The notes: generated from the sequence alone by a model not told the origin. A stretch of 40,226 bases of DNA from an uncultured Alphaproteobacteria bacterium (GCA_902623545.1 CACNUI010000012.1:1-40226); one strand, 5' to 3'. Positions 14,043-18,563 are shown, counted from the stretch's first letter. Made by a program: numbers and translations.

Positions 14043-14508
14043 AATATTTATAGATATATAGAGCGTTAACTATAAAAATAAATAGCAATACTATAGTATT
14101 AATTGAAGCAGCTGAAATACCAAAAAAACTCCATATAACTTCATCACAACTGATAACTTGTTTTGAAAGTATCTGCTCTTTCAAATTAATAGTATTTTCT
14201 GTAATTTCCAAACCAGCTGAACAACCAGAAGGTCCACTTAATAAATTATTTTCAACACCTACATGCCATATTGCATAAAATAATCCATAAATAGAAGACA
14301 ATTGAATCAACAAATACCCAAAAAGCTTTGACTTAAATGGAATAAAAAAAATAAATAAAGATATTAAAATCATTAAATAATAGGGATGTCTTTGTTTTAA
14401 ACATAATTCACAAGGCTGAAGATTAAAAACGAATTCGGCAATCAAAGCTGTAATTATTGATATTGAGCTAATAATTAATAGTAGTATATTCCAAATTTTA
14501 AAAATCAT
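14008..14508 (-). CDS. dsbB: Disulfide bond formation protein B
   Basis: This 166-residue inner-membrane protein has four predicted transmembrane helices. It passes electrons from DsbA to quinones. The first redox pair is C33/C36 in CELC. The second periplasmic pair is C96 (PSGCSAG) and C121 (ISCDE). The pattern CELCLKQRHPYY is a clear DsbB signature. It overlaps the upstream DedA-type gene by 4 bases and the downstream coq7 by up to 35 bases, so translation of the three is probably coupled. Confidence 0.9.
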   Translation of the reverse strand: MIFKIWNILLLIISSISIITALIAEFVFNLQPCELCLKQRHPYYLMILISLFIFFIPFKSKLFGYLLIQLSSIYGLFYAIWHVGVENNLLSGPSGCSAGLEITENTINLKEQILSKQVISCDEVIWSFFGISAASINTIVLLFIFIVNALYIYKYYGSKKEKKNAL

Positions 14509-15089
14509 AAGTAACCTAATAATAATACTCCGCTAACTAAGAGTATAAAAAATAATATAGTCAATATGTTAAAGTATTTATTAATAAATTTCTTAATTGT
14601 TTCACCAAATATATACAATAAGAATGCTATTAAATAAAATCGACATCCACGAGCAATAAATGAGCATAAAATAAACACGATCAAGTTGAGTTGAAATAAA
14701 CCACTAGCAATTGTAATAATTTTAAATGGTAAAGGAGTAAAGCCTGCTATCAGAACAAACCATACACCATAATTATTGTAATATTCTTTTAGGTTTTCTA
14801 TATATTCGTTCATACCATAAAAATTTACCAAAATTATTCCAATACTATTAAACAAAGCAAAACCAATTAAATATCCAAACAAACCACCTAAAACTGAAAA
14901 AACTGTGCAAACAGATGCAAGGATAAAAGCTTTTGTTCTTTTGGCAAGTATCATCGGAATTAAAATTATATCTGGTGGAATTGGGAAAAATGAACTTTCA
15001 ATAAAAGAAATGAATGCCAAAAACCAGGATGCGTACTTTTTTGATGACTGTTCTAATGTCCAGTTGTATAAAAATCGAAAAACTTTCAT
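14505..15089 (-). CDS. DedA/VTT-domain membrane protein (YqaA-like)
   Basis: This protein of about 194 residues begins at MKVFRFLYNW. Hydrophobic segments cover most of its length. SFIESSFFPIPPDIILIP and AGFTPLPFKIITIASG are the paired re-entrant-loop motifs (FIE..FPIPPD and FTPLPFK..T..AG) of the SNARE-associated/VTT family, thought to move or scramble lipids in the inner membrane. A longer frame starting at 15131 would read through the tRNA remnant at 15098-15153 and is not real, so I place the start at 15089. The ATG lies 8 bases after the tRNA 3' end copy. Confidence 0.82.
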   Translation of the reverse strand: MKVFRFLYNWTLEQSSKKYASWFLAFISFIESSFFPIPPDIILIPMILAKRTKAFILASVCTVFSVLGGLFGYLIGFALFNSIGIILVNFYGMNEYIENLKEYYNNYGVWFVLIAGFTPLPFKIITIASGLFQLNLIVFILCSFIARGCRFYLIAFLLYIFGETIKKFINKYFNILTILFFILLVSGVLLLGYL

Positions 15090-15097
15090 TGTTTTTT

Positions 15098-15153
15098 TTG
15101 GTAGGAGTAGAGGGAATCGAACCCACACCACCGAAGTGACCGGATTTTGAATC
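15098..15153. repeat. Left attachment-site copy: 3' fragment of tRNA-Leu
   Basis: These 56 bases are identical to 18055-18110. The copy holds the CCA end, acceptor 3' strand, T arm, variable arm and part of the anticodon arm of tRNA-Leu, then diverges. It has no 5' half and so cannot make a tRNA. It marks the left boundary of the island. Confidence 0.9.
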
Positions 15154-15258
15154 TATCAAATAAATAAACTCCACTAAACTCCTAGTTTATTTTCTAGGTA
15201 ATACTTGGTTTTTATACCTAAGTCTACGAGCTTGTTGAAAAAAATTAAGATCACAAGT

Positions 15259-15279
15259 CAACCATAGGGCAACTTTTTT
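15259..15279. repeat. Left inner repeat, possible recombinase arm site
   Basis: This 21-base segment (CAACCATAGGGCAAC followed by six T) matches 18003-18023 with one T/C difference and has the same orientation. It lies about 105 bases inside the left tRNA fragment. By analogy with phage attachment sites it may be a recombinase arm-binding site. This is inferred from placement only. Confidence 0.55.
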
Positions 15280-15352
15280 TATTTTATCAATTAGTGGATA
15301 ATTTTCTAATCTAAATATTTCTTTGATCAATATTTGGGTTTAAAAATACAAT

Positions 15353-15922
15353 ATGACTCCAACAGATATCAAAGATATTGTTCCTTCAGCACTTCAAGAT
15401 CTTTACAATGGTGGCTGTATTGATCACCCGTGTACAACCTGTTCGGGTCGTAGTTTAGAAACTGCTTTTAAAAATAATATTCTAAAATTTAAGCTTCACA
15501 ATCTAGATTTGGTAAAAACACCTGATAAGGAAATTTTTGAAAAAGCTTTATGTAAAATGGATATGAATAAAGTTAAAAAATATGATCGTATTGTAAAAGG
15601 TGGTTTTTGGGGAGGCAGAATCCCTTTTTGGGTAAAAGCAATTCGTAACTTACGACGAAATGATTTTAATTCTCCTAAATGGTTAATTTATTTAAAAGAA
15701 AGAAAATATTTAGAATACGACTTAGAATTTAAGAAAATATATTCTTATTGGTTAGAGTATCGTTTAGATGAATTAGAGCTTGTTGATTTTATGATTTACT
15801 ATGACAGCTTTGTTCCTGAAAATAAAAAAGATTATCTTATGAGCACTGGTAAATTACTTTTAAAACAAAACTACAATAAAAGTTTGGAAGAAAGTATTAG
15901 TTATAGACTGGGATTGGTTTAA
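15353..15922 (+). CDS. Island hypothetical protein with cysteine cluster
   Basis: I do not recognise this 189-residue protein. It has a cysteine group near the N-terminus (C22, C27, C30 in GGCIDHPCTTCSG) that could bind a metal. The middle is basic, with KGGFWGGRIPFWVKAIRNLRR around residues 82-102. The C-terminus is rich in aromatic and acidic residues. There is no signal peptide or clear membrane helix, so it is probably cytoplasmic. It is the first gene inside the island from the left, about 200 bases from the tRNA fragment and directed away from it. In tRNA islands this place is often held by an integrase or excision factor, but it has no integrase motif (no R..HxRH..Y). Confidence 0.6.
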   Translation: MTPTDIKDIVPSALQDLYNGGCIDHPCTTCSGRSLETAFKNNILKFKLHNLDLVKTPDKEIFEKALCKMDMNKVKKYDRIVKGGFWGGRIPFWVKAIRNLRRNDFNSPKWLIYLKERKYLEYDLEFKKIYSYWLEYRLDELELVDFMIYYDSFVPENKKDYLMSTGKLLLKQNYNKSLEESISYRLGLV

Positions 15923-15937
15923 GTTTTTAAAATAATA

Positions 15938-16189
15938 TTATTCTTCGTACCAGCAAACAGTAAATTCAGGTTTACCATTTATTAAATTAACACTGCAAAT
16001 AACTATTGGATTATCACTTTTCTCTTTTAGTAAAGTATAATAAGTATAATCACCTTCAGTATTAACACTTATAATTTTATAACCAGAGTTTATTAGTTCT
16101 TTAAGTTTATTTGGAGTTATTTTCCATGATCCTACAGCAAATAAGCTTGTTGAATAAATTAATACAATTATAAAAATGAATTTTTTCAT
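15938..16189 (-). CDS. Small secreted hypothetical protein
   Basis: This 83-residue protein has a clear signal peptide (basic start MKKF, hydrophobic core to about residue 15, likely cleavage after LFA). The mature part of about 65 residues has two cysteines, one in VICSV and one in FTVCWYEE at the very C-terminus, which could form a disulfide in the periplasm. I do not recognise it. It is the only island gene on the minus strand, convergent with the 15353-15922 gene (15-base gap) and divergent from the four-gene operon. Confidence 0.55.
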   Translation of the reverse strand: MKKFIFIIVLIYSTSLFAVGSWKITPNKLKELINSGYKIISVNTEGDYTYYTLLKEKSDNPIVICSVNLINGKPEFTVCWYEE

Positions 16190-16265
16190 TACTAATTCTT
16201 AACAAAATTAATTACAGATGACTAGAAAACTTAACAATCTCCATGGTTAGTGGTAGGATAAACTT

Positions 16266-16601
16266 ATGAAAGAAATTCCCTATATAATTTTATATATAGG
16301 ATCTCCCGTTATCCTAGGTTCAATAGCTTTTATTTTTTTCCCTCAAATTAATGGGCATGTAATTAATTATTTTTGTGAAGGAAATTTTAGAAACTGTCTT
16401 CCTGGACAAGATGACAATATAAGTTTTTTTCAAAAAATCCCTTTTTGGTTAGGTTTTATTTGTCTATTTTGTTTTTACGTTTGTTATAAAATTTTTAAGG
16501 AAAATAAAATTGTAGGTTTATTTATATATTGTACTTTAGGACTTAGTAGTTTTCTATTTTTTGTATTTTATTCTTATAACGTTTTATTAAATTATATGTA
16601 A
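16266..16601 (+). CDS. Island membrane protein, three predicted helices
   Basis: This 111-residue hydrophobic protein has likely transmembrane segments at about 5-25, 56-75 and 82-103. A cysteine-containing loop lies between the first two (C37 and C44, in NYFCEGNFRNCLPGQ). I know of no family for it. It is the first gene of a four-gene run on the plus strand. The next ATG lies 2 bases after its stop, which indicates cotranslation. A purine-rich AGGATA lies a few bases before the start. Confidence 0.55.
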   Translation: MKEIPYIILYIGSPVILGSIAFIFFPQINGHVINYFCEGNFRNCLPGQDDNISFFQKIPFWLGFICLFCFYVCYKIFKENKIVGLFIYCTLGLSSFLFFVFYSYNVLLNYM

Positions 16602-16603
16602 TT

Positions 16604-17029
16604 ATGAACTTAGAAAAAATATTTAAAAATACAATATTACTTTATTTTTTATCAACTGTTGTCTTTCTAGTTATCAGTTTTACGTTAGAAAAAAACTTTC
16701 TAGGAGAAGAATTATATCTTATTGATTCAGAAATAGATCTTTTTATTATACCCATTTTAGAAGAATCAGTATTTATACTTATATGGTTTTTAGTAGCTTT
16801 AATTACTTTTACTATAAATATTCTATCTCTTTATTTTTTATATTATTTCAAACCTATAGGAAAAAAACTATATATTTATAGCTTAATCCTACTTTTCATA
16901 TTATTTATAATTGATAAGGGTGATGTTATTAGTGGTCCTCTTCAATTAATGGATTATTTTGGATCATTACTCGAAGGTATGATTATATGCTTTCTATACT
17001 TCACTCCAATAAAGGAAAAGTTTAGTTAA
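16604..17029 (+). CDS. Island membrane protein, four predicted helices
   Basis: This 141-residue protein has hydrophobic segments at about 10-27, 52-80, 86-104 and 118-135, separated by short acidic loops (ELYLIDSEIDLF, IIDKGDVISG). I do not recognise it. It starts 2 bases after the preceding membrane protein and its stop directly abuts the ATG of the next gene. Two adjacent polytopic proteins followed by a single-pass and a soluble protein suggest a membrane complex, but no motif supports a specific activity. Confidence 0.55.
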   Translation: MNLEKIFKNTILLYFLSTVVFLVISFTLEKNFLGEELYLIDSEIDLFIIPILEESVFILIWFLVALITFTINILSLYFLYYFKPIGKKLYIYSLILLFILFIIDKGDVISGPLQLMDYFGSLLEGMIICFLYFTPIKEKFS

Positions 17030-17236
17030 ATGAAAATTAATTTAATTTTTATGATTTGTTTAGTTAGTGGTTCAGTACTTTTTGATGACTTAAATGAATC
17101 ACTTAAAATTGTTCCAACTTTAGAGAATTCTGACTGGAATGATATTTACATAACTTTTATAGGTTCAGCAGTAGGAGTGTTTACTGGTATTTCTTTAAAT
17201 TTTATTATTGATAAAATTAAAAAGAATAATGATTGA
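17030..17236 (+). CDS. Island small membrane protein
   Basis: This 68-residue protein has an N-terminal hydrophobic stretch (residues 2-18) that could be a signal peptide or anchor. An acidic middle (FDDLNESLK) is followed by a glycine-containing helix at about 42-62 and a lysine-rich cytoplasmic tail (DKIKKNND). It abuts the previous gene with no spacer and overlaps the next by ATGA. Its small size and two-helix form resemble accessory subunits of membrane complexes. The family is unknown. Confidence 0.5.
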   Translation: MKINLIFMICLVSGSVLFDDLNESLKIVPTLENSDWNDIYITFIGSAVGVFTGISLNFIIDKIKKNND

Positions 17237-17930
17237 ACAGAGTTGGCGATACTTAGGTGAAGTTGGCTATGAGGGTATTAAAGTAATTATCACTGACTCA
17301 GAAAATTTTCCTAAGTTTTTTGATCCACGTTCTTCCTTAATCTTGTTAACAGAAGAAGAAAAGAAACAAACTCAAAAAATAAGAGCGGAGAAATATCCTG
17401 ATTTAAGAAATGATAATTTTAAAAAACTAAATACCAATATTGATTATATTGATAGATATGGAACAATTGATCTTGATAAGCACCCTACTTGTGTATCTAT
17501 TAATAATTACTCTGGTTATAAAATTCCCTGGATATTTGGTGCTATGGGTAAGTTTGAATCCTACGGTAATTTCCTATCAAATAAAGTTATTGATATCGTA
17601 GTTTATAACAGTCTATCCAATATTAATAACAACTCAGAAATTAAAATAAGGAAAGTTTGTTCAATAGAGATATATTCTGGCTGTATAGGAATTCATGAGC
17701 CAATGTTTATGAGTGATAATGAATTATTAGAGTCAGAATTCAACATAAAGTGTCCTCAAGGAAATGGTCACTATGATATCTCTCAGATAGAAATAATTGA
17801 AAGTAATGAGTTTCAAAAAGAACCTTTTGGAACTGCGGTAAATCTTAGTGGTGAAAATTCTTTAAGCGAAGCAAGGGTTCAAGATCTAATAAACTTTATT
17901 AAAAAAAGATCTGAAACAAAAATAATATAA
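17229..17930 (+). CDS. Island soluble hypothetical protein
   Basis: This protein of about 233 residues starts at MIEQSWRYLG. I prefer the ATG at 17229 to the one at 17208 because it forms an ATGA overlap with the upstream stop, fitting the coupling seen across this operon. It is soluble, with mixed alpha/beta composition and no signal peptide. SINNYSGYKIPWIFGAMGKFESYGNF lies near residues 90-115 and SGCIGIHEPMFMSD near 150. Three or more cysteines are present but with no metal-site spacing. I do not recognise it. It ends 124 bases before the right attachment site. Confidence 0.55.
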   Translation: MIEQSWRYLGEVGYEGIKVIITDSENFPKFFDPRSSLILLTEEEKKQTQKIRAEKYPDLRNDNFKKLNTNIDYIDRYGTIDLDKHPTCVSINNYSGYKIPWIFGAMGKFESYGNFLSNKVIDIVVYNSLSNINNNSEIKIRKVCSIEIYSGCIGIHEPMFMSDNELLESEFNIKCPQGNGHYDISQIEIIESNEFQKEPFGTAVNLSGENSLSEARVQDLINFIKKRSETKII

Positions 17931-18002
17931 TTTAATTTAATTAAAAAGGATTAGTGATAAGCCTTACAACTCACCTACTTACTTTATTTGAAAATCGTAG
18001 GG

Positions 18003-18023
18003 CAACCACAGGGCAACTTTTTT
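18003..18023. repeat. Right inner repeat, possible recombinase arm site
   Basis: This segment matches 15259-15279 with one mismatch. A further AGGGCAAC at 17999-18006 directly precedes and partly overlaps it, giving two GGGCAAC units 11 bases apart here against one at the left end. It lies about 32 bases inside the tRNA 3' end. Multiple short direct repeats next to an attachment core are typical of recombinase arm sites. Confidence 0.55.
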
Positions 18024-18054
18024 AAATCTGAAATTTGATAGATGTCAATTTTTG

Positions 18055-18110
18055 TTGGTAGGAGTAGAGGGAATCGAACCCACACCACCGAAGTGACCGG
18101 ATTTTGAATC
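18055..18110. repeat. Right attachment-site copy within tRNA-Leu
   Basis: These 56 bases are identical to 15098-15153. They form the 3' part of the intact tRNA-Leu gene. Sequence identity ends at the base of the anticodon stem, where the left copy continues with TATCAAAT and this copy with CGGCGCGT. Confidence 0.9.
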
Positions 18111-18140
18111 CGGCGCGTCTACCAGTTCCGCCATACTCCC
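18056..18140 (-). tRNA. tRNA-Leu (anticodon CAA)
   Basis: The 85-base gene folds as a class II tRNA. The acceptor GGGAGTA pairs with TACTCCT (with a G-U at position 1-72), then A and an encoded CCA follow. The anticodon stem CCGGA/TCCGG encloses loop TTCAAAA, giving anticodon CAA. A long variable arm (CACTTCGGTG) and the T loop TTCGATT are present. The 5' end lies only 3 bases after the sufE stop, so it may be processed from the galE-galT-sufE transcript. Its 3' part is the target of the island. Confidence 0.95.
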
Positions 18141-18143
18141 AAG

Positions 18144-18563
18144 TTATTTGTCTGTGTATGCAATAGCATATTCTTTAATTTTTTCTAACATTGAATAAAC
18201 CCCATTTCTTCTACCCGGGGTTAAAAGAGTATCAAGTTCCAAAATATTTAACATTCCAAAATCAGAATCTTTAATTTCAGTAGGTAACCTATCGCTATAG
18301 ATATCACATAGAATAGTCACCATACCCTTTGAAATAAAAGCATCAGAGTCATAAAAAAATGAAAGTTTATTTTCATTTAACTTTGGTACTAGCCAAACTT
18401 GTGCCTGGCAGCCAGATACTTTAAAAGAGTCATTTCTATATTCCTCAGGAAATGCTTTTGCATTTTTAGCTTGGTCAATTAAAAACTTATATTTATCCAT
18501 TCCATCATCAAATAGATCAAGACTTTCTTTGTAGTAATTAATTTTTTCTTCTATTGTTTTCAT
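18144..18563 (-). CDS. sufE: SufE-type cysteine desulfuration protein
   Basis: This 139-residue SufE family protein accepts sulfur from the SufS desulfurase for Fe-S cluster assembly. The sulfur-accepting cysteine is C52 in VSGCQAQVWL, the family hallmark. The C-terminal LTPGRRNGVYSML loop is also conserved. The start overlaps the galT stop by 4 bases (ATGA), and its stop lies 3 bases from tRNA-Leu. No suf operon genes are nearby, so the link with galactose genes is likely positional only. Confidence 0.92.
   Translation of the reverse strand: MKTIEEKINYYKESLDLFDDGMDKYKFLIDQAKNAKAFPEEYRNDSFKVSGCQAQVWLVPKLNENKLSFFYDSDAFISKGMVTILCDIYSDRLPTEIKDSDFGMLNILELDTLLTPGRRNGVYSMLEKIKEYAIAYTDK

Follow-up and report, generated by a model that had tools for sequence, protein, structure and literature searches.

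How does a gene cassette enter a tRNA gene when it carries no recombinase of its own? The question is raised by a 2.96 kb island at the tRNA-Leu(CAA) gene in a 40,226-nucleotide stretch of DNA from an uncultured Alphaproteobacteria bacterium (GCA_902623545.1, CACNUI010000012.1:1-40226; hereafter the window). For the tRNA genes of streamlined marine bacteria, the sections of earlier work cited below leave such entry unexplained. The island is, in the reading that we consider likely, a non-autonomous integrative cassette, and integrases specific to tRNA-Leu, encoded by satellite-like elements, would mobilise it in trans. The arm-type sites that the island shares with integrase-bearing satellite-like elements name a testable helper; if the reading is true, a pool of cassettes in ocean bacteria is moved by satellite-like elements.

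Attachment sites and ends of the island

An exact 56-bp direct repeat (15098-15153 and 18055-18110, the copies spaced 2957 bp apart) encloses the 2.96 kb segment with its six open reading frames (ORFs) and adjoins the full tRNA-Leu(CAA), as a preliminary description of this DNA had reported. Extended to 15092/18049, the copies are identical at 61/62 positions. The repeat is the 3' part of tRNA-Leu(CAA), reaching through the anticodon loop; 8 bp separate its left copy from the start codon of dedA. ARAGORN found this tRNA (18056-18140, minus strand) as the only one in the window. The genome's own assembly comprises 1.40 Mb in 55 contigs, is 88% complete and has the window as contig 12; in it no second tRNA-Leu(CAA) gene was found, and the only other match to the repeat was the left copy. 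The empty sufE-tRNA-dedA site for which the preliminary description had called exists in a relative (genome G015, locus L038), where the three genes are adjacent with gaps of about 14 and 86 bp. The window flanks, joined at the repeat, align to this site through the identical tRNA.

Directly inside both attachment (att) copies lie arm-type repeats (15258-15273 and 17999-18017) that the preliminary description had missed. The bipartite motif TCAACCAYAGGGCAAC, with at most 2 mismatches, occurs only at these two arm sites in 40 kb, where 0.03 occurrences are expected. The left end (15154-15240) can be aligned to the tRNA 5' half and upstream region of the empty site (79/136 aligned, 8.8 standard deviations over shuffles). 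Read as sequence, the window shows the full putative substrate of a tyrosine integrase, with tRNA-Leu core repeats and arm-type sites inside each end, and no integrase gene. The features at the two ends are:

14505..15089 (-): left flank, DedA/VTT-domain gene (Pfam VTT_dom)
15098..15153: left att repeat, 56 bp, the displaced tRNA 3' part beside dedA; the joined flanks match the empty site L038
15154..15240: degenerate tRNA-Leu 5' half and tRNA upstream region on the element's left end
15258..15273 (+): left arm-type site, TCAACCATAGGGCAAC
17999..18017 (+): right arm-type site pair, AGGGCAACCACAGGGCAAC, with a period of 11 bp; it lies 57 bp from the end of the tRNA, in the same place as in the integrase-bearing segment L041 (below)
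18055..18110: right att repeat, 56 bp
18056..18140 (-): intact tRNA-Leu(CAA), the target gene restored at the right junction (ARAGORN)
18144..18563 (-): right flank, sufE (Pfam SufE)

Arm-type sites shared with integrase-bearing elements

The candidate helper, L041 in genome G002, is a 9.5-kb satellite-like segment at the same tRNA-Leu. It encodes a 332-aa integrase (PF00589, 2.6e-24), a primase/helicase (DUF5906, CHC2) and an excisionase-like helix-turn-helix protein; no structural gene was found among the ten proteins scanned. The preliminary description had looked to the rest of the genome for an integrase with matching arm sites; one was found in this relative, not in the same genome. In L041 the integrase gene begins next to the right end, and two GGGCAAC repeats with a spacing of 11 bp come after it, at 57 bp from the tRNA. 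Over the 70 bp inside the tRNA, the window and L041 match at 62/70 positions (89%), whereas the empty site gives no alignment to the window there (14%); the value of 97% over 148 bp between the two right ends includes the tRNA, which is conserved everywhere. Related right ends without an integrase, 77-87% identical to the window over 70 bp, are present in L037 (twice, as L037a and L037b), L043, L056, L064 and L066. The window's left end is alike at 105-115 of 132-134 bp to those of L043, L056, L037a, L037b and L065.

Arm pairs with an 11-bp period, 56-57 bp from the tRNA, are found in the integrase-bearing L041, L082 and L079 and the stub-bearing L074, and also in the integrase-less window, L037a, L053, L076 and L079b. 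A second arm type (GGTCAAC pairs) joins the integrase-bearing L082 to six integrase-less ends (58-68 of 68 bp). For a third (GCGTTGT pairs), the stub-bearing L074 resembles several more ends by eye. L083 and L087 have integrases of the same family next to tRNA-Arg-like and tRNA-Gly-like sequence (tRNAs read from sequence), again with 11-bp repeat pairs. Because the pairs are shared across L041, L082, L074, L083, L087 and the integrase-less ends, we regard them as a trait of the integrase family that is kept in cassettes without the integrase.

In window-type left ends the tRNA repeat extends to positions 50-61 from the tRNA 3' end; in the other type it begins at 23-45. The crossover is likely at the anticodon stem-loop, where both repeat types overlap. 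In the second arm type the degenerate half is the element's 3' half. Elements of either kind would seem to bring a complete tRNA-Leu gene as their attachment site (attP), and its half outside the working tRNA would decay.

In the mechanism that we propose, an element of the L041 type would supply the integrase in trans, and the enzyme would recombine the attP of the cassette with the anticodon region of tRNA-Leu(CAA). At the right junction the 3' half brought by the cassette would restore the tRNA; at the left junction the host's old 3' half would stay, joined to the cassette's degenerate 5' half. For excision, this integrase would again be required, perhaps with a helper directionality factor. 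Cassettes of the family would arise through integrase deletion from larger elements and would swap cargo among themselves. The island probably belongs to such a family, whose small gene cassettes borrow the enzyme for their movement from satellite-like elements.

The tRNA-Leu hotspot in related genomes

Other cargo bounded by the same tRNA repeat, as foreseen in the preliminary description, was found in many relatives. We mapped 29 tRNA-Leu-bounded segments of 0.67-9.5 kb (median about 1.3 kb) in 23 genomes of the genus; most relatives are represented by incomplete assemblies from single cells or metagenomes, and these counts are lower bounds. A single ORF (>=60 aa) makes up the content of 18/29 segments, and tandem cassettes occur at L037, L067 and L071. 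Where Pfam recognised the cargo of the hotspot, it included an FkbM methyltransferase, an HNH nuclease, rhodanese, bactofilin, LysE, MORN repeats and a carbamoyltransferase.

A tyrosine-recombinase gene or fragment was present in only three of the 29: L041 (intact, 332 aa), L070 (429 aa) and L074 (118-aa fragment). L079 and L082 also contain intact integrases related to that of L041, next to copies of tRNA-Leu. Integrase stubs remain in the sister cassettes L074 (99 codons), L100 (94 codons), and L077 and L037a (start region); because these stubs are kept, we take such cassettes to arise by integrase deletion. Retained ends, mosaic cargo and low synonymous divergence (dS; see below) argue that the integrase-deleted forms kept moving. 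More tentatively, the tRNA-Leu(CAA) locus of the genus may be an integron-like platform, at which mostly single-gene, integrase-less cassettes would be inserted, stacked and shuffled in trans by satellite-like integrases; it would have several arm-site specificities, each with an integrase-bearing representative, and a tRNA-Leu gene with arm sites as attP.

Related integrases are carried by uncultured Alphaproteobacteria (AG-457 and AG-414 records) and by metagenome-assembled genomes. A closed genome of 1.41 Mb (G037) belongs to a related family; the host may be a member of the HIMB59/AEGEAN-169 order. In phage records all relatives of the integrase are below 60% identity, with 32% among the matches listed. 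Serine recombinases were scanned in part of the relatives; at L070 (6686-11571), a 242-aa serine resolvase accompanies the 429-aa tyrosine recombinase in tRNA-Leu segments.

Genes and mosaic structure of the island

The six ORFs of the island are:

15353..15922 (+): P1, 189 aa; 89% aa identity to its counterpart in L037, next to the same left end; ratio of nonsynonymous to synonymous divergence (dN/dS) 0.20
15938..16189 (-): P2, 83-aa ORF; ORF call only
16266..16601 (+): P3, 111-aa hydrophobic protein; 93% aa in L073; dN/dS 0.16
16604..17029 (+): P4, 141-aa hydrophobic protein; 95% aa in L073; dN/dS 0.16
17030..17236 (+): P5, 68-aa ORF; ORF call only
17229..17930 (+): P6, about 233 aa; 87% in G126 at tRNA-Gly; the family occurs in islands beside several different tRNA genes

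No ORF had an above-cut-off match in Pfam or any match in PADLOC, PHROGs matches were weak and uninformative, and NCBIfam, run for P1, P4 and P6, gave no recombinase support. A tblastn search with four helper-type integrases revealed no integrase relic in the island (best E 0.19). A cryptic recombinase within the island was rejected on these searches, and the six genes stand, as first described, as unrecognised and without a recombinase.

The island is a mosaic of four parts. Its left block (15092-15925) is 90% identical to L037 in G031; the next (16230-17032) is 94.5% identical to L073 in G074, where the cassette is of the second arm type; the third (17225-17984) is 90.5% identical to L100 in G126, a tRNA-Gly island with the 94-codon integrase stub; and the fourth is the shared right end. 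The cargo genes have dS values of 0.15-0.30 and dN/dS of 0.16-0.35. We consider P1, P3, P4 and P6 to be real genes because their homologues show these dN/dS values, and the low dS together with the dN/dS range points to exchange of blocks across species and to purifying selection. Host genes were compared for the pair with G031, in which dS is 0.30 for P1 vs 1.01 for sufE; dedA is about 67% alike in nucleotides, P1 90%. The left part or the whole cassette appears to have crossed species, most simply without an integrase: since both carriers of P1 (the window and G031) lack one, movement of the integrase-less cassette itself is the simplest history. The alternative for the sharing of P1 is recombination after arrival.

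Weighing the explanations

The preliminary description proposed either a decayed island or a minimal non-autonomous element that depends for its movement on a recombinase from elsewhere, and our results support that proposal; the two readings are not mutually exclusive. Had an integrase-bearing element inserted here, later lost its integrase and become fixed, the arm sites would be relics. The stubs in L074, L077, L037a and L100 show that integrase deletion happens, and no helper was found in the own assembly; however, six other cassettes without an integrase have kept the same ends while differing in cargo, P1 and the left end are common to the integrase-less G031 at a dS far below that of the host sufE (0.30 vs 1.01), and the cargo is under purifying selection. 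Decay as the whole account is in our view unlikely. Mobilisation in trans, the reading that we prefer, has points against it as well. No excised circle or movement was observed, and movement is what we infer. The helper integrase was not found in the 88% complete own assembly. Only the right end is shared with the helper, the left ends of L041 and the window failing to align (10/246). Arms are weak or degenerate in some integrase-less ends (L066, L075). The arm motif, the att core and the integrase had no match in the IMG/VR viral collection, which is not decisive on packaging.

After an old insertion, a cassette could also spread between cells by homologous recombination in flanking or repeated tRNA sequence, with no site-specific step. 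Copies of the tRNA offer short homology, the HIMB59 phosphate islands are thought to be moved in this way (PMC10734472), and the mosaic within the island implies that islands have to some extent recombined with one another, by homologous or illegitimate means. As the account of the cassette it is nevertheless improbable: the flanks do not travel with the cargo (in G031, dedA about 67% and P1 90%), the breakpoints lie at the tRNA, and the P3-P4 and P6 blocks are found in islands with different ends or at another tRNA gene. We give still less credence to movement by the resident Xer-like 352-aa recombinase (G000:C1:145402-145983), in the manner of IMEX elements (integrative mobile elements exploiting Xer) at dif. 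This protein is the only PF00589 protein, and the only tyrosine recombinase, found in the own assembly, where no PF00239 serine recombinase was found, and it is common to most of the genus; but the repeats are tRNA and by inspection not dif-like (no dif search was made), and the arm sites are matched by sites that lie beside the genes of satellite-type integrases. The Xer-like gene (L003 1465-2523) adjoins a Sir2-like gene (Sir2 by eye) and is single in its genome.

Comparison with known systems

The kind of element is already known, as cis-mobilizable elements (CIMEs) and as additive genomic islands; the new part is the arm sites that link integrase-less cassettes to a helper. CIMEs, e.g., the ICESt1-related islands of Streptococcus, keep attL and attR and have lost the genes for integration and transfer (section cited of PMC5704250, citing Pavlovic 2004 and Bellanger 2011). 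The window likewise retains both att sites without recombination genes; with regard to derivation from an integrase-bearing element, its right end is common to L041, whereas the left end of L041 differs. CIMEs also accrete in tandem with related elements, and tandem cassettes occur here too. Unlike CIMEs as that section presents them, the cassettes described here are mostly 0.7-4 kb, often of one gene, with mosaic cargo and arm sites kept; in the sampled segments they far outnumber integrase carriers, and the proposed helper is phage-satellite-like rather than an integrative conjugative element (ICE), acting in trans rather than in cis.

In the portions cited, additive flexible genomic islands and tRNA cassettes of Ca. 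Actinomarinales (PMC7771536) and Methylophilaceae (PMC10872708) are small, lie at tRNA genes with direct repeats of tRNA fragments and belong to streamlined marine hosts, as here. The window also has the insertion at a tRNA with a partial tRNA repeat, the variable content among relatives and the empty site. Those portions name no recombinase for the cassettes, and the word "integrase" is absent from that of the Actinomarinales text; here, in contrast, shared arm sites link the cassettes to a specific integrase family.

Phage satellites, tycheposons and virion-encapsidated integrative mobile elements (VEIMEs) are, where PMC11389934 and PMC10872708 name them, marine tRNA-targeted elements with a tyrosine recombinase, and L041 is satellite-like in gene content. 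No integrase, regulator or replication gene was recognised in the window's cassette, unlike in those elements; such genes are present in L041. Integron cassettes and clusters of attC sites lacking integron integrases (CALIN; PMC11389934) work alike, as arrays of mostly single-gene, integrase-less cassettes mobilised in trans by a tyrosine recombinase. The bounding sites here, however, are tRNA-Leu repeats with arm sites rather than folded attC, and the integrase is of phage type; that of L041 scores 25 bits against the integron-integrase model (cut-off 265 bits). The ssrA islands of Dehalococcoides (PMC3146451) are also tandem, bounded by RNA-gene repeats and in some cases without an integration module, but they have a serine recombinase, a tmRNA target, and a different host and cargo. 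Conjugation or relaxase genes, as in ICEs and integrative mobilizable elements, gave no above-cut-off Pfam match in any island gene.

Further observations on cargo and flanking genes

Homologues of P2 and P5 were not found in the loci examined. The predicted folds of P1 and P6 have a mean pLDDT of about 44-45, and neither protein had a match in IMG/VR. A match to P1 in G082 (26% identity, E 8e-4) lies in a 922-aa frame. Relatives of P6 are located near tRNA-Gly, tRNA-Gln and tRNA-Arg, and one in the own genome near tRNA-Ser; islands with these relatives are marked by partial tRNA repeats at the Gly, Arg (G072, G117) and Ser sites. The tRNA-Ser(GGA) island of the own genome (G000:C2:36469-40701; L103 4470-8701), about 4.1 kb long, holds the P6 paralogue and a 53-bp relic of the 5' half (91%). 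No integrase was found in it, which makes it the second integrase-less island of this genome.

At 18141-18146, the gap between tRNA-Leu and the sufE stop codon is 3 bp in the window, compared to about 86 bp in L038. The tRNA-sufE gap of L038 contains an upstream block, TTACTTGGTTTTTA, that is present in several relatives. It may be that the tRNA-Leu of the window no longer has a promoter of its own and relies on read-through. Near the hotspot in G012, a partial second copy of sufE of about 55 codons (L056 5440-5599) is a sign of local duplication.
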